DNA of 64,000 nt from Flavobacteriales bacterium. GTDB lineage: Bacteria > Bacteroidota > Bacteroidia > Flavobacteriales_D > Crocinitomicaceae. Location of the stretch: positions 48,812 to 112,811 of the forward strand of contig CANLAQ010000001.1 in the NCBI GenBank assembly GCA_947488235.1, in the 5' to 3' direction. Below are positions 1,579-8,432 of this stretch, piece after piece. The notes below the pieces were generated by a model. That model saw only the letters and a list, made by a program, of their open reading frames with translations, did no database searches and was not told where the DNA came from. The position numbers and the translations under genes are program-made. Numbering within the stretch: the stretch's first letter is position 1; each line of letters begins with the position of its first letter.

Positions 1579-2586
1579 TTAATCATGCTGGTAGCAATAC
1601 CCGCTTGGATCTTTGGTCATCCGTTTACAACGCGCACCTTTTTTAGTTGTTCCCATGCATTGACTTGAAGTTCCAACATTTTTAGACGAATGATGCGAAC
1701 GACTTCCAGAACTACTTGATGTCCAAGACCAACAGGCAATACAAACCTCTTTTTCTAATGTATTTTCTTCTTTATCAACTAAACCAGGAAAAAAATCAAT
1801 ACCAGTAATGCGCTCTAATTCATCTATCGAGACAACATAACGGGTCAAAGATTCTTTAGAACCTTGATTAGGAAGAATAAAGGCTATCGCTTTTGGATGT
1901 TCATGATAGTCGAGGATTACCTTATAATAATATTTTGGAACGCTTACCTGATTGGATCCTATGGTTGGGAGACCTGCACTTAGAACAGGGCCAGTCACCA
2001 CATAAACAGATTTATAATCTACTGCCCAATCACGAACAAGTTCCTCAAGTTTCTTCCAAATACCCCTATTAAAACTTGGATCTTGAGGACTCATATTACT
2101 ATAATAAAAAGATTCTTGCATGGTATTGGCAGTGGAGGACATATCGGCAGCAGGAGCCAAATGACCTCGATCATATCCAGATCCTTTATAATCACGATCC
2201 GTTGCACTTCCTGTACTTACATTTGGATCAGATTCAAAATCATTAGATCTTTCATACAAACGATTCGTTTCATCAGCTGTTAACTCGTAAGCCACCCAAG
2301 CTGCTTGTTCATATGCTTCACTGTAGCGAATAGTATACGCTAAATGCCTGATGATTTGATCCTTTGAATGAATAAGAGGCAATTCCAAATTTTCTTGTGC
2401 AACCCTTATAGTATCTTCAAGCGCCACATTGGAAACTATTTGTTCTACTTTTGGCTCAGCTTTTTTTTCTGTTGGAGACAGGATATTTCTTTCTTCCTTA
2501 ACCTGATGCTTATTGGATAAGACTTTTACTAAAACTCCAAGACAGAGGAAGAAAAAAATTAAAAAAATTATGGAATATTTTTTCAT
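1579..2586 (-). CDS. DNA/RNA non-specific endonuclease (NUC1 family) with C-terminal Cys/His motif
   Basis: DRGHLAPAADM active-site motif; N-terminal TM/signal; C-terminal CMGTTKKGARCKRMTKDPSGYCYQH. Start trimmed to MKKYS. Confidence 0.85.
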   Translation of the reverse strand: MKKYSIIFLIFFFLCLGVLVKVLSNKHQVKEERNILSPTEKKAEPKVEQIVSNVALEDTIRVAQENLELPLIHSKDQIIRHLAYTIRYSEAYEQAAWVAYELTADETNRLYERSNDFESDPNVSTGSATDRDYKGSGYDRGHLAPAADMSSTANTMQESFYYSNMSPQDPSFNRGIWKKLEELVRDWAVDYKSVYVVTGPVLSAGLPTIGSNQVSVPKYYYKVILDYHEHPKAIAFILPNQGSKESLTRYVVSIDELERITGIDFFPGLVDKEENTLEKEVCIACWSWTSSSSGSRSHHSSKNVGTSSQCMGTTKKGARCKRMTKDPSGYCYQHD

Positions 2587-2587
2587 A

Positions 2588-4225
2588 TCAATTGACAATT
2601 ATTTTTTTGTTTACCATCATACCATTTTTAAATGCGGCGCTTACTAAATAAGTGCCACAAGACCATTGTGATACATCAACAGAAAGGGAATTCGTTAAGG
2701 AAATAGTTTGATAATAAAGCTCCTTTCCATTAAGATCAAAAACCTTTAAATAATCTAACGCTTTATCCATTCCAAAGACAACCTTAAAATAAGACTCAGT
2801 AGGATTCGGATATATTAAAATTGAATTTTCAGGAATAATAGGATCTTTAGGAAAATTAATCTTCCAAAGAGCACCACCTCTTTCGATGACATACAGATCG
2901 TTTCCAAGCAATTCAGCATCTACAGGCAAATAAAATCCAGAAACAACACTTCTTGTTATCATTTCATAGTTATCAATCGAAGTATTATATTCTAATTTCA
3001 TTTGAATCAAATCGCGAGAAGGGTCAACAAATGGGCAAGGAATACCCCAAGGGGAGATTGGAGAAAATCCAAGACTATCACCCCCGGGCATAAAACTCAA
3101 AACAAAACCATCACCTTTATAGGGAAAAGACAAATTACTATCCGCGTCAAAGACCAATCCTAAAGGGGACCGATGCGCGGTGAAAGAACTCACATAAGTT
3201 CCATTTTGACTTGCTTGCAGAACGCCTCCGCTTATAGCATCACGATAAAAATCTCCAGCAGAACCTAAATTACGAATAGGCTCCATCCAATTTACATTAT
3301 TAGGAATTGAGGGAAATCCTGAAGTGTAATTAAACCATCCTGCAGCAACACCACTTCCATTTGGATTTACAAGGGGATCATTGTGATAATCATAGTTGGG
3401 ATATTGTATAGGATTATCATTTCCACCCATTCTCCATGGAAATCCATAATTCCTACCTTGTCTCAACCAATTCAATTCTTCCGGATCATCTCTTTCACCA
3501 GAATTATCAATGGCAAAAAGGGTATCCTTGCTATCCCAAGCCATGTCGTAAGCGTTGCGCGTACCTGATGCAAATAAATAAGGACTATTAACAATAGAAG
3601 CTGAATCATTGAGCAATAAAACATTCGAACTGTTTATAGGAAAACGAAAAATACGAGAAGTTAAAGGCACTTCTCGAGTATTTGGCCAAGCACCATTATT
3701 ATCATCTAATTCACCTAAATGAGTCCGTGCACCGCTACTAACATAAATATGTGCACCACTAGGATCAACTGCAACACCTGTAAAACCATGATCTCCTGTT
3801 GGACTAGCAGTTGGATAAGGATCCGTACTCACCATGACTTCCCATGTGCGTTGACCATTAAAGAAAGGAGTTCCTTTGACCACATAGCCAACACCAACGA
3901 TTGAGGTCCAATTATTACCCGAAAGATACAGAACGCCATCACGAAAACAGAGCCCTTGGAGACAGGTGATGCCATGATCAGCCGAAGTAAATCGAAGAGA
4001 ATCAGTGGCGCCACCTTGTTCATTTAAAAAAATCTCATAAATATCACCTGTTATTATAGCATAAAAAAGATGACCGCTTACAACATCATAATCTAATTTT
4101 GTTGCATAAGGTTTGGGAGTGAAAATTGAATCAACCGATAAATCATTGTATAGAGGAAAAACACGCTGTTGAGCAATAGCAAGAAAATTTAATCCAATAA
4201 ATGCAATGATTAAAAAATTTCGCAT
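2588..4225 (-). CDS. PQQ/sugar-dehydrogenase-like beta-propeller with T9SS sorting domain
   Basis: NSGERDDPEELNWLRQGRNYGFPW motif, signal peptide, C-terminal YPNPTESYFKV..GTYLVSA. Confidence 0.7.
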   Translation of the reverse strand: MRNFLIIAFIGLNFLAIAQQRVFPLYNDLSVDSIFTPKPYATKLDYDVVSGHLFYAIITGDIYEIFLNEQGGATDSLRFTSADHGITCLQGLCFRDGVLYLSGNNWTSIVGVGYVVKGTPFFNGQRTWEVMVSTDPYPTASPTGDHGFTGVAVDPSGAHIYVSSGARTHLGELDDNNGAWPNTREVPLTSRIFRFPINSSNVLLLNDSASIVNSPYLFASGTRNAYDMAWDSKDTLFAIDNSGERDDPEELNWLRQGRNYGFPWRMGGNDNPIQYPNYDYHNDPLVNPNGSGVAAGWFNYTSGFPSIPNNVNWMEPIRNLGSAGDFYRDAISGGVLQASQNGTYVSSFTAHRSPLGLVFDADSNLSFPYKGDGFVLSFMPGGDSLGFSPISPWGIPCPFVDPSRDLIQMKLEYNTSIDNYEMITRSVVSGFYLPVDAELLGNDLYVIERGGALWKINFPKDPIIPENSILIYPNPTESYFKVVFGMDKALDYLKVFDLNGKELYYQTISLTNSLSVDVSQWSCGTYLVSAAFKNGMMVNKKIIVN

Positions 4226-4307
4226 GAACATAAAAATCAATTTATACTACGAATATAGTAAAATGAGATGAGCGAATTGCCACTTAAAATTAAAATAACA
4301 AAACTGA

Positions 4308-5732
4308 TTAAAGTTTAATATTGTACTTTTCAATTTTACTAATCAGCGTGTTAATAGCCCATCCAATGGCAATAGACGACTGTCTTTTATTCCCTTTGAA
4401 ATACTTAAGAACCCTTTCTATATGTTCTTTTTCAACAAAGGAAATATGCATTGGTTTTTCCATTGGACCTTGCGATAATCGTTTTGGTAAAACTTCAGCA
4501 TTGACTAATTCCTCATTAAAAACATACAATCTTGAGATGATATTTTCTAGTTCCCTAACATTTCCGGGATAAGAATAATTTAATAGCACCTCCAATGCTT
4601 CTTTTTCTAAGATTAATTTTTTGGGACGATTTAATTCTTTTTTCTTTTGATTTAAAAAATACTCCATCATCGCTTTTATATCTTGTTTACCCCTTTCGAC
4701 CAATGATGGTAAATCTAATTCTACTACGGACAAGCGATAATATAAATCCCATCTAAACTTACCTTCCTCACACAACTTCGTTAGACTTTGATTTGTTGCA
4801 GCGATGACCCTAACATTTATTTTCTTAGCTTTTCCTCCAAGAGGCATAACCTCTTTTTCTTGCAAGACACGCAATAAAGCTTGTTGCATATAAGGAGAAA
4901 TATCCCCGATTTCATCTAGAAAAATAGTGCCTTCATTAGCTTCTTCGAATAAACCTGTGGTGTCCTTATCGGCACCCGTAAAGGCGCCTTTTTTATATCC
5001 AAACAAGCGAGATTCTAATAATGAATCACTAAATGCAGAGCAATTAACCGTAACATAAGCTTGTTCTGATCTAATTGAATTTTTGTGAATGTATTTAGCT
5101 AAATTTTCTTTTCCCGTTCCACTCGCTCCTAAGATTAATACCGTTACTAAATCCGTTTGAGCAACCTTTTCTGCATTGTTATAAATCCACTTTATTTGAG
5201 GCGTTATAAAATAATCATCAGACACATTGCTTCTTTTAACTTGCTCTTGATGATAAATGGCTGTAACAGGAAGTGATGATTGTTCTAATTCAATCTTAAT
5301 TAATTCCGGTTTATCTTTGGTTTTAGTATACTTTGCTTCTCTTGTTTGAAAAAGAGTTGTGTTTAAATTTAATCCAAGGTGACTTAAATACCACACCACT
5401 TGCATTGAAGGAGTTCCAGGAGTTATAAAAACATCAATTTTATCCTCTTTTAGACTTGTTAGTAATGGATCCACTTTTGATTGAATTTCCCGATGATCAA
5501 TGGGATCATTAATCCCCATATAAATAGGTTCAATGATACGATCAGGGTAAGTTCTTTTTAAGAAATTCACCAAGAGTTCCGTTCTTAGATCACTTTCTTT
5601 AGCACTTGAAAGCAATAAATGTTGATCTTGTTTAAAGAAGAATTTGTGATAATTTGCCGTTGGTCCATTTTCGAGTACTTTACCTTCGTAAAAGTCATTA
5701 TTATAAGCCACCCAAGAAACCAAAGTCTTCAT
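4308..5732 (-). CDS. sigma54-interacting AAA+ transcriptional activator with RtcR/CARF-like N-terminal domain
   Basis: Walker A GASGTGKE, GAFTGA loop, DEIGDIS, Fis-like C-terminal HTH; N-terminal ~170 aa with FITPGTPSMQVVWYL motif reminiscent of CARF proteins. Confidence 0.85.
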   Translation of the reverse strand: MKTLVSWVAYNNDFYEGKVLENGPTANYHKFFFKQDQHLLLSSAKESDLRTELLVNFLKRTYPDRIIEPIYMGINDPIDHREIQSKVDPLLTSLKEDKIDVFITPGTPSMQVVWYLSHLGLNLNTTLFQTREAKYTKTKDKPELIKIELEQSSLPVTAIYHQEQVKRSNVSDDYFITPQIKWIYNNAEKVAQTDLVTVLILGASGTGKENLAKYIHKNSIRSEQAYVTVNCSAFSDSLLESRLFGYKKGAFTGADKDTTGLFEEANEGTIFLDEIGDISPYMQQALLRVLQEKEVMPLGGKAKKINVRVIAATNQSLTKLCEEGKFRWDLYYRLSVVELDLPSLVERGKQDIKAMMEYFLNQKKKELNRPKKLILEKEALEVLLNYSYPGNVRELENIISRLYVFNEELVNAEVLPKRLSQGPMEKPMHISFVEKEHIERVLKYFKGNKRQSSIAIGWAINTLISKIEKYNIKL

Positions 5733-5848: not shown

Positions 5849-6970
5849 TTATTTTTGTGTCTTAGATTGATAAGATAGCCAAGGAATCAAATCATTATAC
5901 ATTTTTTGATAAAGAAAATCATCTTTCCCTCTCACTTGACCGATAAAATTAATGTGTCCTGTTAATGAATTCAAAAATCGAATGTTTCGTTGTATAACTG
6001 AATGTGAAAAATCACCTGCATTTCTGCTTGAAGCATGATCAATTCCATTAGTATTTAAATCATGGAGCATTGCTCGTACCTTTTTGAGCATCTTACGATC
6101 AATATTTACTTTTTCATTAACAATTATCCCTGTCACCACTTGTTTTTTATTTTTGGACCTCAATCTAAATTTTTTATCATTCAGAGAAAAACCATGCGTC
6201 ATAAGTATGTGTTTTAAGTACTGAACTTGAATTTTAGTGATAAATTCATTCGAAGAAAAACTCAAATCATCTGCATATCTTGTGTAAGTTATCCCTTCTT
6301 GCTCACAATAATTTAAAAGAGCATTATCGAGAGGTAAACAGATTAAATTGGAAAGTACAGGCGAAGTTGCAACACCTTGTGGTAAAACGCCATTATAGGT
6401 TAAAAGATAGGTTAAGGCTTCCGAAACAGATTCATCAAATCCAAAGGGAGGAGATCTAAAAAGCGAGTAAACCTTTTGGGCTGGAATTGAACTAAAAAAA
6501 TCTTTTAAATCTAGATTAAGAAGATACCTTTTACCTACATGAGGCAGGGCATTCTGTACAATATTAGCATTTTGAGAATTATGTTTTACCCGTAAAACAA
6601 AGCCATGAACAGAGGGATGTTTTATACACGAATACACTCCTTGCAAATGACTGTTAATTTTCTTTTGAACTTTATTCAGCCTCCCTTGCGGCGCATTAAT
6701 GACACGGAAACCTTTTTTCCTTTTTGGAATAGAATAATTTAAATAATTCGGATAATTCAACATTAATTCCAATTCAGTCCAGGACAATCTAAGAAAAAGA
6801 CATAAATCTAAAGTTGATTTTATGCCTAACATTCTAAGTGCATATTTTTCAGCTGTATTCAAAAAAGTAAATGGAGTGGTGCGTAATGAATTATTAGGAT
6901 AATAAATAAATTTCCAACATTGATCTTTAAAAATCTCTTTTTTTATCGATAAATCCTCTATTTTATTCAT
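5849..6970 (-). CDS. retron-type reverse transcriptase
   Basis: RT motifs: RVINAP, HGF...NA..HVGKRYLLNLDLKDFFSSI, LPQGVATSPVLSNL, YTRYADDLSFSS, and retron-typical VVTGIIVN (VTG) motif. Confidence 0.95.
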   Translation of the reverse strand: MNKIEDLSIKKEIFKDQCWKFIYYPNNSLRTTPFTFLNTAEKYALRMLGIKSTLDLCLFLRLSWTELELMLNYPNYLNYSIPKRKKGFRVINAPQGRLNKVQKKINSHLQGVYSCIKHPSVHGFVLRVKHNSQNANIVQNALPHVGKRYLLNLDLKDFFSSIPAQKVYSLFRSPPFGFDESVSEALTYLLTYNGVLPQGVATSPVLSNLICLPLDNALLNYCEQEGITYTRYADDLSFSSNEFITKIQVQYLKHILMTHGFSLNDKKFRLRSKNKKQVVTGIIVNEKVNIDRKMLKKVRAMLHDLNTNGIDHASSRNAGDFSHSVIQRNIRFLNSLTGHINFIGQVRGKDDFLYQKMYNDLIPWLSYQSKTQK

Positions 6971-6987
6971 AATTATATTTTAAAAAA

Positions 6988-7139
6988 AGCCGTTGATCCT
7001 TATCTCAAATTTGCATGCATTCTTTCGAGCGAAGCGAGCAAGAATGGAGGCAAAGCCCCTAATTCCACTCAACTTCTAAATGGGTTGCGAGAACACAACC
7101 ACAAGTCTATAAATGACTCATAAGTTCTAATCAACGGCT
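6988..7139 (-). ncRNA. candidate retron msr-msd ncRNA
   Basis: Perfect 10-bp inverted repeat AGCCGTTGAT (6988-6997) / ATCAACGGCT (7130-7139) bounding a series of hairpins; a1 followed by TTAG; lies immediately 5' of the RT start codon, the canonical retron arrangement. Confidence 0.8.
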
Positions 7140-7148
7140 CTTATACTA

Positions 7149-8189
7149 TTAAAAAGGATTATCCTCCTCATCCAAATTCAGTTTTCGATCTTTTCTAATT
7201 TGAAATCTACTTTTTCCTTCTTCAAAAGGAGCCAATTTGCTTTTTGCAAAATCGACATTGAATTTAAGTGTAGTTACGGAACCAAATCTATTTTTAGCTA
7301 AAATCAATTCCATCATAGCCAAAGTAGATTCATTATACTCATCGATTAATAAACCGTAATACTCGGGTCTATATACAAAGAATACCTTGTCTGCATCCTG
7401 CTCTATGCCACCGCTTTCTCTAAGGTCAGTTAGTACAGGCCTTCTATCCCCCCCCCTCATTTCAACACTTCTGCTCAGTTGACTTGAAGCAATTATACAC
7501 ACCTTCAATTCAAGCGCAATCTTCTTCAAAGTCCGACTAATGTATCCCACCTCGAGAACACGACTGTTTCGATAGCGCTTAGAAGAAAGCATTTGCAAAT
7601 AATCAATAATAATTACCTTAATGCCCTTTTCTCTAACCATTTTCTCACAATAATGGAACAATTCGGTCATCGATTCGATTTGTCGATCGTAAAATGAAAG
7701 ATGAAGAGCAGAAAAATACGATTTCAATAACTTTATATCATCCGCATTCACTCTTTTAAAATCAGCCGGATTATGCAGCGGAATCGGTCGCTCTAGAAAA
7801 CCATTGGCAATCCTATACATCAAGGCAGTACTCGTCAAGTCAAATGAAAAATAGAGCACCTGAGTTTGCAAAGAAATCCTAGTCGCAAGATCTAACAGAA
7901 CTAGTGATTTACCCATACCGGGTCTTCCGCCAACTATTATATATTCCCCTAGACTGAGTCCACCTAGTTGACTATCATAATTCGACCAACCAGTGGGAAT
8001 AAGTTCATTAGAATTTCCCTCGCTATCGTCAATGGTTTCCTCTAAACAATTTAAAATGGTTCTAGAGGTATAGTCATCGGTTTCACTTAAACTAGGTTTC
8101 GCTATGAGCTCCTTCAATCTATCAAGTAAAATCCCGTTCTCTGGAGGAAAATCTATTAATATATTCTGTATTTTATCTTGAATTGTCAT
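7149..8189 (-). CDS. DnaB-like helicase C-terminal (RecA-fold ATPase) domain protein, lacking a typical DnaB N-terminal domain
   Basis: GGRPGMGKS Walker A, VIIIDYLQML Walker B, SQLSRSVEMRGGDRRPVLTDLRESGGIEQDAD; start set at ATG of MTIQDK (the longer ORF begins with TTG at 8276). Confidence 0.88.
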   Translation of the reverse strand: MTIQDKIQNILIDFPPENGILLDRLKELIAKPSLSETDDYTSRTILNCLEETIDDSEGNSNELIPTGWSNYDSQLGGLSLGEYIIVGGRPGMGKSLVLLDLATRISLQTQVLYFSFDLTSTALMYRIANGFLERPIPLHNPADFKRVNADDIKLLKSYFSALHLSFYDRQIESMTELFHYCEKMVREKGIKVIIIDYLQMLSSKRYRNSRVLEVGYISRTLKKIALELKVCIIASSQLSRSVEMRGGDRRPVLTDLRESGGIEQDADKVFFVYRPEYYGLLIDEYNESTLAMMELILAKNRFGSVTTLKFNVDFAKSKLAPFEEGKSRFQIRKDRKLNLDEEDNPF

Positions 8190-8432
8190 AAAACTTTGAT
8201 TTGCACTTGATAGACAATTATGAAGCCAACTTAAAAACACCCTATTTATCTCAATATATTTTAAATAATATATCAATTTTTGAAAAACATAATATATTTT
8301 GATATTATAAATACTTTTATATCAGCACTAAAACACTCCTATTTGAATTAATATTTCTAAAATCAATATCTTCCTGATTCACTTTCTAAATAATTAGTAT
8401 TTTCGTCCTGTTGAATTTATTAATCCACCATC

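Follow-up and report, generated by a model that had tools for sequence, protein, structure and literature searches.

Retrons are sorted by their effectors into 13 types (PMC12548924). In a genome assigned to the Flavobacteriales, a 64-kb stretch (64,000 nt of GenBank contig CANLAQ010000001.1; hereafter, the window) carries on its minus strand, in this order, a gene for a DnaB-like ATPase, a candidate noncoding RNA (ncRNA) and a reverse transcriptase (RT) gene. A preliminary description, made from the letters alone, had read the intergenic segment as a retron msr–msd RNA. The locus raises two questions: whether this RNA is truly that of a retron and, if so, whether a relative of the replicative helicase is the retron's partner, and in what capacity.

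The RT gene (5849–6970, minus strand) encodes a 373-amino-acid protein that is identified as a retron RT by the PADLOC retron RT models (best E value 1.8e-91), by Pfam (RVT_1), by its motifs and by PDB profile matches. The closest PADLOC profiles are those of types XI (RT–protease), I-C (RT–Toprim, for example Eco2/Ec67) and XII (RT–TIR), at 1.8e-91 to 3e-86, and the best PDB matches are the Ec67 (2.6e-60) and Ec86 (1.9e-55) retron RTs. In an alignment of 18 RTs, N140, A141 and H144 (NAxxH), Y232–D235 (YADD) and T280 and G281 are invariant, the last two being preceded by V or I (VTG); these three motifs, also present in types XI, I-C and XII, characterize retron RTs (PMC12405507). Those types, however, fuse their effector to the RT, whereas here the RT is standalone and a separate DnaB-like gene lies upstream: no Pfam domain other than RVT_1 was found in the window RT, so it has no protease, Toprim or TIR fusion, and related RTs are mostly 344–405 amino acids long. 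The RT of Retron-Eco1/Ec86 (type II-A), the source of the second PDB match, is standalone too. None of the effector genes that PADLOC names for other retron types was found beside the window RT. A small RT tree did not resolve the DnaB-linked RTs as one clean clade (two changes), and its deep branches are weak.

The putative ncRNA spans 6988–7139 on the minus strand, from the outer a1 arm, AGCCGTTGAT (7130–7139), to the outer a2 arm, ATCAACGGCT (6988–6997). As originally described, the arms are exact complements separated by 132 nt. The minus-strand fold that had been suggested as a check is unusually stable (−54.9 kcal/mol, z = −4.75), a value equalled by none of 200 shuffles. The arms alone were rejected as proof of a retron RNA: the window contains 10 exact 10-bp inverted pairs with 100–170-nt spacing, against a mean of 10.3 in 20 dinucleotide-style shuffles, and such pairs are thus at chance level over 64 kb. 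Within the 178-nt intergenic stretch itself, an exact 10-bp pair arose in just 6 of 2,000 shuffles. Because a repeat of this length is expected about ten times per 64 kb, support from relatives was needed, and an Rfam scan of the window gave no match at the gathering threshold.

Using the RT as the query against 393 genomes of the order (E ≤ 1e-40), we obtained matches at 35 places in 33 genomes, a patchy distribution. Apart from the window itself, 28 loci have a homologous RNA between the stop codon of the upstream DnaB-like gene and the RT. In the 28 aligned RNAs, 98.1% of the structure cells are paired, and both sides have changed at 17 of the 27 pairs, a number that none of 500 shuffles reached; 77 cells carry double changes, compared with 17.1 in the shuffles, which, like all the shuffle controls for covariation used here, ignore kinship among the sequences. 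When the partner was shifted by one to three columns, pairing fell to 28–48%. The outer a1/a2 helix shows compensatory changes at 11 of its 12 pairs; the preliminary description had named arms without covariation as the result that would count against it, and the arms covary.

The same helices recur in sequences that played no part in building the model. With a covariance model built from the RNA, we scanned 389 class genomes, blind to RT and DnaB neighbours, and found 10 new matches beyond the window's own, spread over seven other families (f76, f84, f90, f101, f106, f108 and f110). All 10 are flanked by a DnaB-like gene (36–40% identity) and an RT (41–46%). Together with two loci reached by way of the RT rather than the RNA (L068 and L069), they form an out-of-sample set of 12, in which 96.7% of cells are paired and double changes occur at 14 of 26 pairs, beyond every shuffle (44 double-change cells versus 13.7). 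This alignment was fitted to the RNA model and is biased towards its structure; in the raw sequences, the arms are visibly complementary in nearly all cases, with shorter exact runs in L095 and L104. A search of the genome contigs with a single sequence recovered only five loci.

The alignment also revised the anatomy of the RNA. RNAalifold revealed an inner helix, absent from the preliminary description, between CUUAU (7120–7124) and AUAAG (6999–7003), the latter within an invariant AGAUA motif. It is paired in 95% of cells in the 28-sequence set, with double changes in two of five pairs, and in 100% of the out-of-sample set. Directly 3′ of its a1 strand lies G7119, the G of UUAUG. All 28 aligned homologues have G here, and it is the sole invariant G ahead of the msr hairpins; UUAUG is present in all 12 out-of-sample sequences. 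G7127, earlier named as the branching guanosine, is G in only two of the 28, the window and one near-identical relative. In Retron-Eco1/Ec86, a long a1/a2 stem runs up to the branch G, which directly follows the stem end, and two msr hairpins come next, as here. Because the Ec86 branch G occupies the corresponding position, G7119 is the better candidate for the branching guanosine, its role being assigned by analogy with known retrons.

Both msr hairpins have counterparts in the original annotation. Hairpin 1 (7104–7118, AGUC/GACU), with double changes in four of four pairs in the out-of-sample set, retains the (A)GUC(G)/(C)GAC(U) part of a hairpin drawn at 7121–7101, the 'AU' part of which belongs instead to the inner a1/a2 helix. 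Hairpin 2 (7083–7100, GGUUGUG-UUCU-CGCAACC) was correctly drawn and is conserved, with 100% of cells paired among the homologues and two pairs with double changes. The segment that separates hairpin 2 from the inner a2 helix (7004–7082) is variable and is the probable msd template, predicted to yield an RT-DNA no longer than about 78 nt. No conserved msd hairpin was found in the homologue alignment; the hairpins previously placed at 7059–7047 and 7046–7018 can be drawn in the window sequence but are not conserved between subfamilies. With an adjacent RT, covarying a1/a2 arms, a conserved msr and a variable msd, the retron layout first proposed has held up, and we regard the ncRNA as almost certainly a genuine retron RNA with its retron RT beside it, as judged from sequence. 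RNA anatomy and RT motifs together point to ordinary retron reverse transcription. A U-run follows the a2 arm (6981–6988) in a terminator-like arrangement, and this position is T-rich in all homologues; the a1/a2 stem may double as a terminator of the ncRNA transcript upstream of the RT gene.

The DnaB-like gene, to which the preliminary description of the RNA makes no reference, accompanies this RNA with great regularity. It lies directly upstream of the RT in 31 of the 35 RT loci of the order (L001–L029, L068 and L069), and the four RT loci lacking such a neighbour are all divergent (L070, an RT-Cas1; L071; L091; and the first RT of L072, a type XI-like protein of 560 amino acids). Flanking genes vary between loci while the order of DnaB-like gene, ncRNA and RT stays constant, and one genome (G346) holds two copies of the cassette (L018/L082 and L068). 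We conclude that the DnaB-like protein is very probably a dedicated third component of the retron. Retron biology, the patchy distribution and a nearby second retron RT at L072 suggest, by analogy, that the cassette is probably used against phages. That second retron-type RT (L072, 3275–4957; 560 amino acids; best PADLOC match RT-Protease_XI) lies several kilobases away, and L072, with two retron RTs, looks like a defence island.

Two further genes occur near some of the loci. An RtcR-like CARF–AAA–HTH sigma-54 activator (window 4308–5732, minus strand; PADLOC RtcR_PspF2, 1.2e-131) adjoins the retron at many of the loci and occurs in either orientation. In a sample of the genus, it is present in all six genomes with the DnaB-retron and in 5 of 33 others (Fisher p = 1.4e-4, kinship ignored), an association that could reflect either an insertion hotspot or a functional link. 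As a constant fourth component it was rejected, being missing near many loci, and a search upstream of the DnaB-like gene for sigma-54 promoters, which would link it to the RtcR-like neighbour, found none. The second gene, c4, is an open reading frame of about 190 amino acids present in L072 (14736–15332), L078 (9899–10504), L080, L081, L082, L092 and L068, directly 3′ of the RT in most of them; it had no match in Pfam or PADLOC.

The partner gene (7149–8189, minus strand) encodes 346 amino acids from its ATG, or 375 if opened at an alternative TTG at 8276. Pfam detects DnaB_C (1.9e-59) and no DnaB_N. Homologues are mostly 337–368 amino acids long from ATG, and most intact copies have about 87–102 residues ahead of Walker A, compared with 227 in replicative DnaB. 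The host genome encodes a separate full-length DnaB of 516 amino acids, to which the DnaB-like copy is 34–37% identical; as the host has its own DnaB elsewhere, the copy is not the replicative one. Its score against TIGR00665, the model of replicative DnaB, is 208.5 bits, below the curated cut-off of 385.25, and in a tree of 69 proteins a single 100/100 branch separates the retron DnaB-like proteins from replicative DnaB. The branches of the retron proteins are long, which is common among fast-evolving defence genes. DnaB structures were the top Foldseek matches of an AlphaFold2 model (mean pLDDT 74.8, higher in the RecA core), the best being 4esv. Counting DnaB-like proteins across the phylum by protein profile was uninformative, being swamped by replicative DnaB.

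Most of the ATPase and DNA-binding residues are retained: the Walker A Lys in 39 of 40 proteins, the Walker B Asp and the motif R in 40 of 40, and the finger Arg in 36 of 40. All 30 replicative DnaBs examined carry the predicted catalytic Glu, whereas 29 of the 40 DnaB-like copies have Asp there. Because of this substitution and the loss of the Walker A Lys in one distant copy, ATP may be hydrolysed slowly or not at all; that would weaken a model of an active helicase. From its motifs, the RecA core with its linker helix is predicted still to bind ATP and single-stranded DNA. The protein ends in an acidic -PF tail (window 7152–7163) resembling that of SSB. This tail occurs in 26 of 29 retron DnaB-like proteins and in 28 of 30 replicative Bacteroidota DnaBs (including L032), and as the latter share it, it was probably inherited from replicative DnaB and is no new feature. 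Retron and replicative proteins thus have the DnaB_C fold, motifs and tail in common, whereas the retron copy lacks DnaB_N, mostly has Asp for the catalytic Glu and resides in a retron cassette.

How might such a protein serve a retron? In other retrons, the toxic partner is restrained by a complex of RT and msDNA and is freed by a phage product (PMC12548924), and SSB, a phage replication protein, is a trigger of other retrons (PMC12887533). Because RT–msDNA complexes restrain toxic partners elsewhere, the DnaB-like protein is most likely a restrained effector, and a tripartite retron with the DnaB-like protein as its effector-type partner is the reading we favour, with moderate confidence. 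The RT would prime from the 2′-OH of G7119, where the inner a1/a2 helix ends, and copy the msd (from about 7004 towards 7082) into the msDNA. The RT–msDNA complex would restrain the DnaB-like ring, formed by the RecA core and linker helix, until a phage replication signal broke that restraint; the freed protein would then disrupt DNA replication, either loading on single-stranded DNA or poisoning assemblies of the replicative helicase, and the infected cell would as a result no longer support the phage. By analogy with other retrons, we think it somewhat likely that the DnaB-like protein is toxic; that it acts on replication is a more tentative proposal. To our knowledge, the DnaB_C fold alone is not a known toxin. 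The complete scheme, a new retron type widespread in Bacteroidota in which a truncated duplicate helicase serves as an effector that is silenced by RT–msDNA and poisons replication forks, is plausible but somewhat less likely than not.

The combination appears to be distinct from described systems. The partner of Retron-Eco1/Ec86 is an N-glycosidase/DNA-binding effector; here the partner is a DnaB domain. Retron-Sda1 (HipA/DUF3037) is likewise a newly recognized pairing of partner proteins with a Bacteroidota retron RT (PMC12548924), although its partners differ and its RT is III-A1-like. The DnaB-like protein matched none of the PADLOC retron effector models (2023 library), its only hit being mad8 (1.8e-5), and no DnaB-based retron was found in PADLOC or in the literature searched, a search lying outside the main retron classification papers. 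At sequence level, the DnaB-retron has every retron feature that was open to testing. Its partner appears to be of a kind new among retrons, although it is not proved new. If confirmed, it would add a retron type whose partner derives from a replicative helicase and, if the proposed action is true, retron immunity would have made the replication machinery itself the weapon. It also ties in with reports of retrons triggered by phage replication proteins, making contact with replication testable. The RNA model could reveal members in genomes otherwise credited with a lone retron RT, and the corrected branch position, G7119, is a precise prediction that RT-DNA sequencing can address and that a DNA-writing tool for Bacteroidota could build on.

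Two other readings would dissolve the cassette altogether. The arms and U-run could terminate or attenuate transcription of the DnaB-like gene, or be mRNA structure, as the conserved T-rich stretch and the abundance of exact 10-bp pairs in the window might suggest. Against this stands a conserved architecture of 150 nt with two covarying msr hairpins, a conserved inner helix and an invariant G next to a retron RT and, as the stem may end transcription and still serve a retron, the two roles can coexist; we consider it very improbable that the RNA is not a retron RNA. Equally slight is the likelihood that the ncRNA is an ordinary one from a retron type already described and that the DnaB-like gene lies beside it by chance. 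The affinity of the RT to those of types XI, I-C and XII fits that idea, but RT and ncRNA searches both lead to DnaB-like neighbours in many families with differing flanks, the RNA-model search did so blindly, and the neighbours form a subfamily apart from replicative DnaB.

The remaining alternatives accept the three-part retron and assign its protein another task. In the main rival, the DnaB-like protein is a sensor or decoy that mimics the replicative helicase as bait for phage loaders, primases or helicase inhibitors, while RT–msDNA reports the binding, a role that would tolerate a slow or absent ATPase. The Glu-to-Asp change, the Walker A Lys-to-Arg change in a viral-contig copy and the lost N-terminal domain all suit such a role, the -PF tail shared with replicative DnaBs suggests that contact with host replication partners persists, and phage replication proteins such as SSB do trigger other retrons (PMC12887533). 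A decoy leaves the cassette without a separate, constant toxic component, however, since c4 and the RtcR-like gene are missing from many loci, and we judge it unlikely. Less probable still is an antitoxin-like or processing role, in which the DnaB-like protein might unwind or remodel the RNA–DNA hybrid of the msDNA and the effector would be elsewhere. It is plausible for a ring helicase to work on such a hybrid, the RT carries no fused effector and c4 or the RtcR-like gene is near some loci, but no other gene is common to all loci, and known retrons are reported to rely on host RNase H1 for RT termination (PMC8989520).

Possible distant members lie beyond these loci. An IMG/VR contig of 43.8 kb (L122) has a set in the same order (2964–4951), comprising a 284-amino-acid DnaB-like protein in which the Walker A Lys is Arg, an RNA-model match at 3827–3970 (E = 5e-4) and an RT with 35% identity; it is possibly a phage-borne member. 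At L210, a partial match to the msr hairpins (1921–2026, minus strand; E = 0.05) lies upstream of an RT frame that is longer and interrupted by a stop codon; it may be a related ncRNA belonging to a retron with a fused RT.
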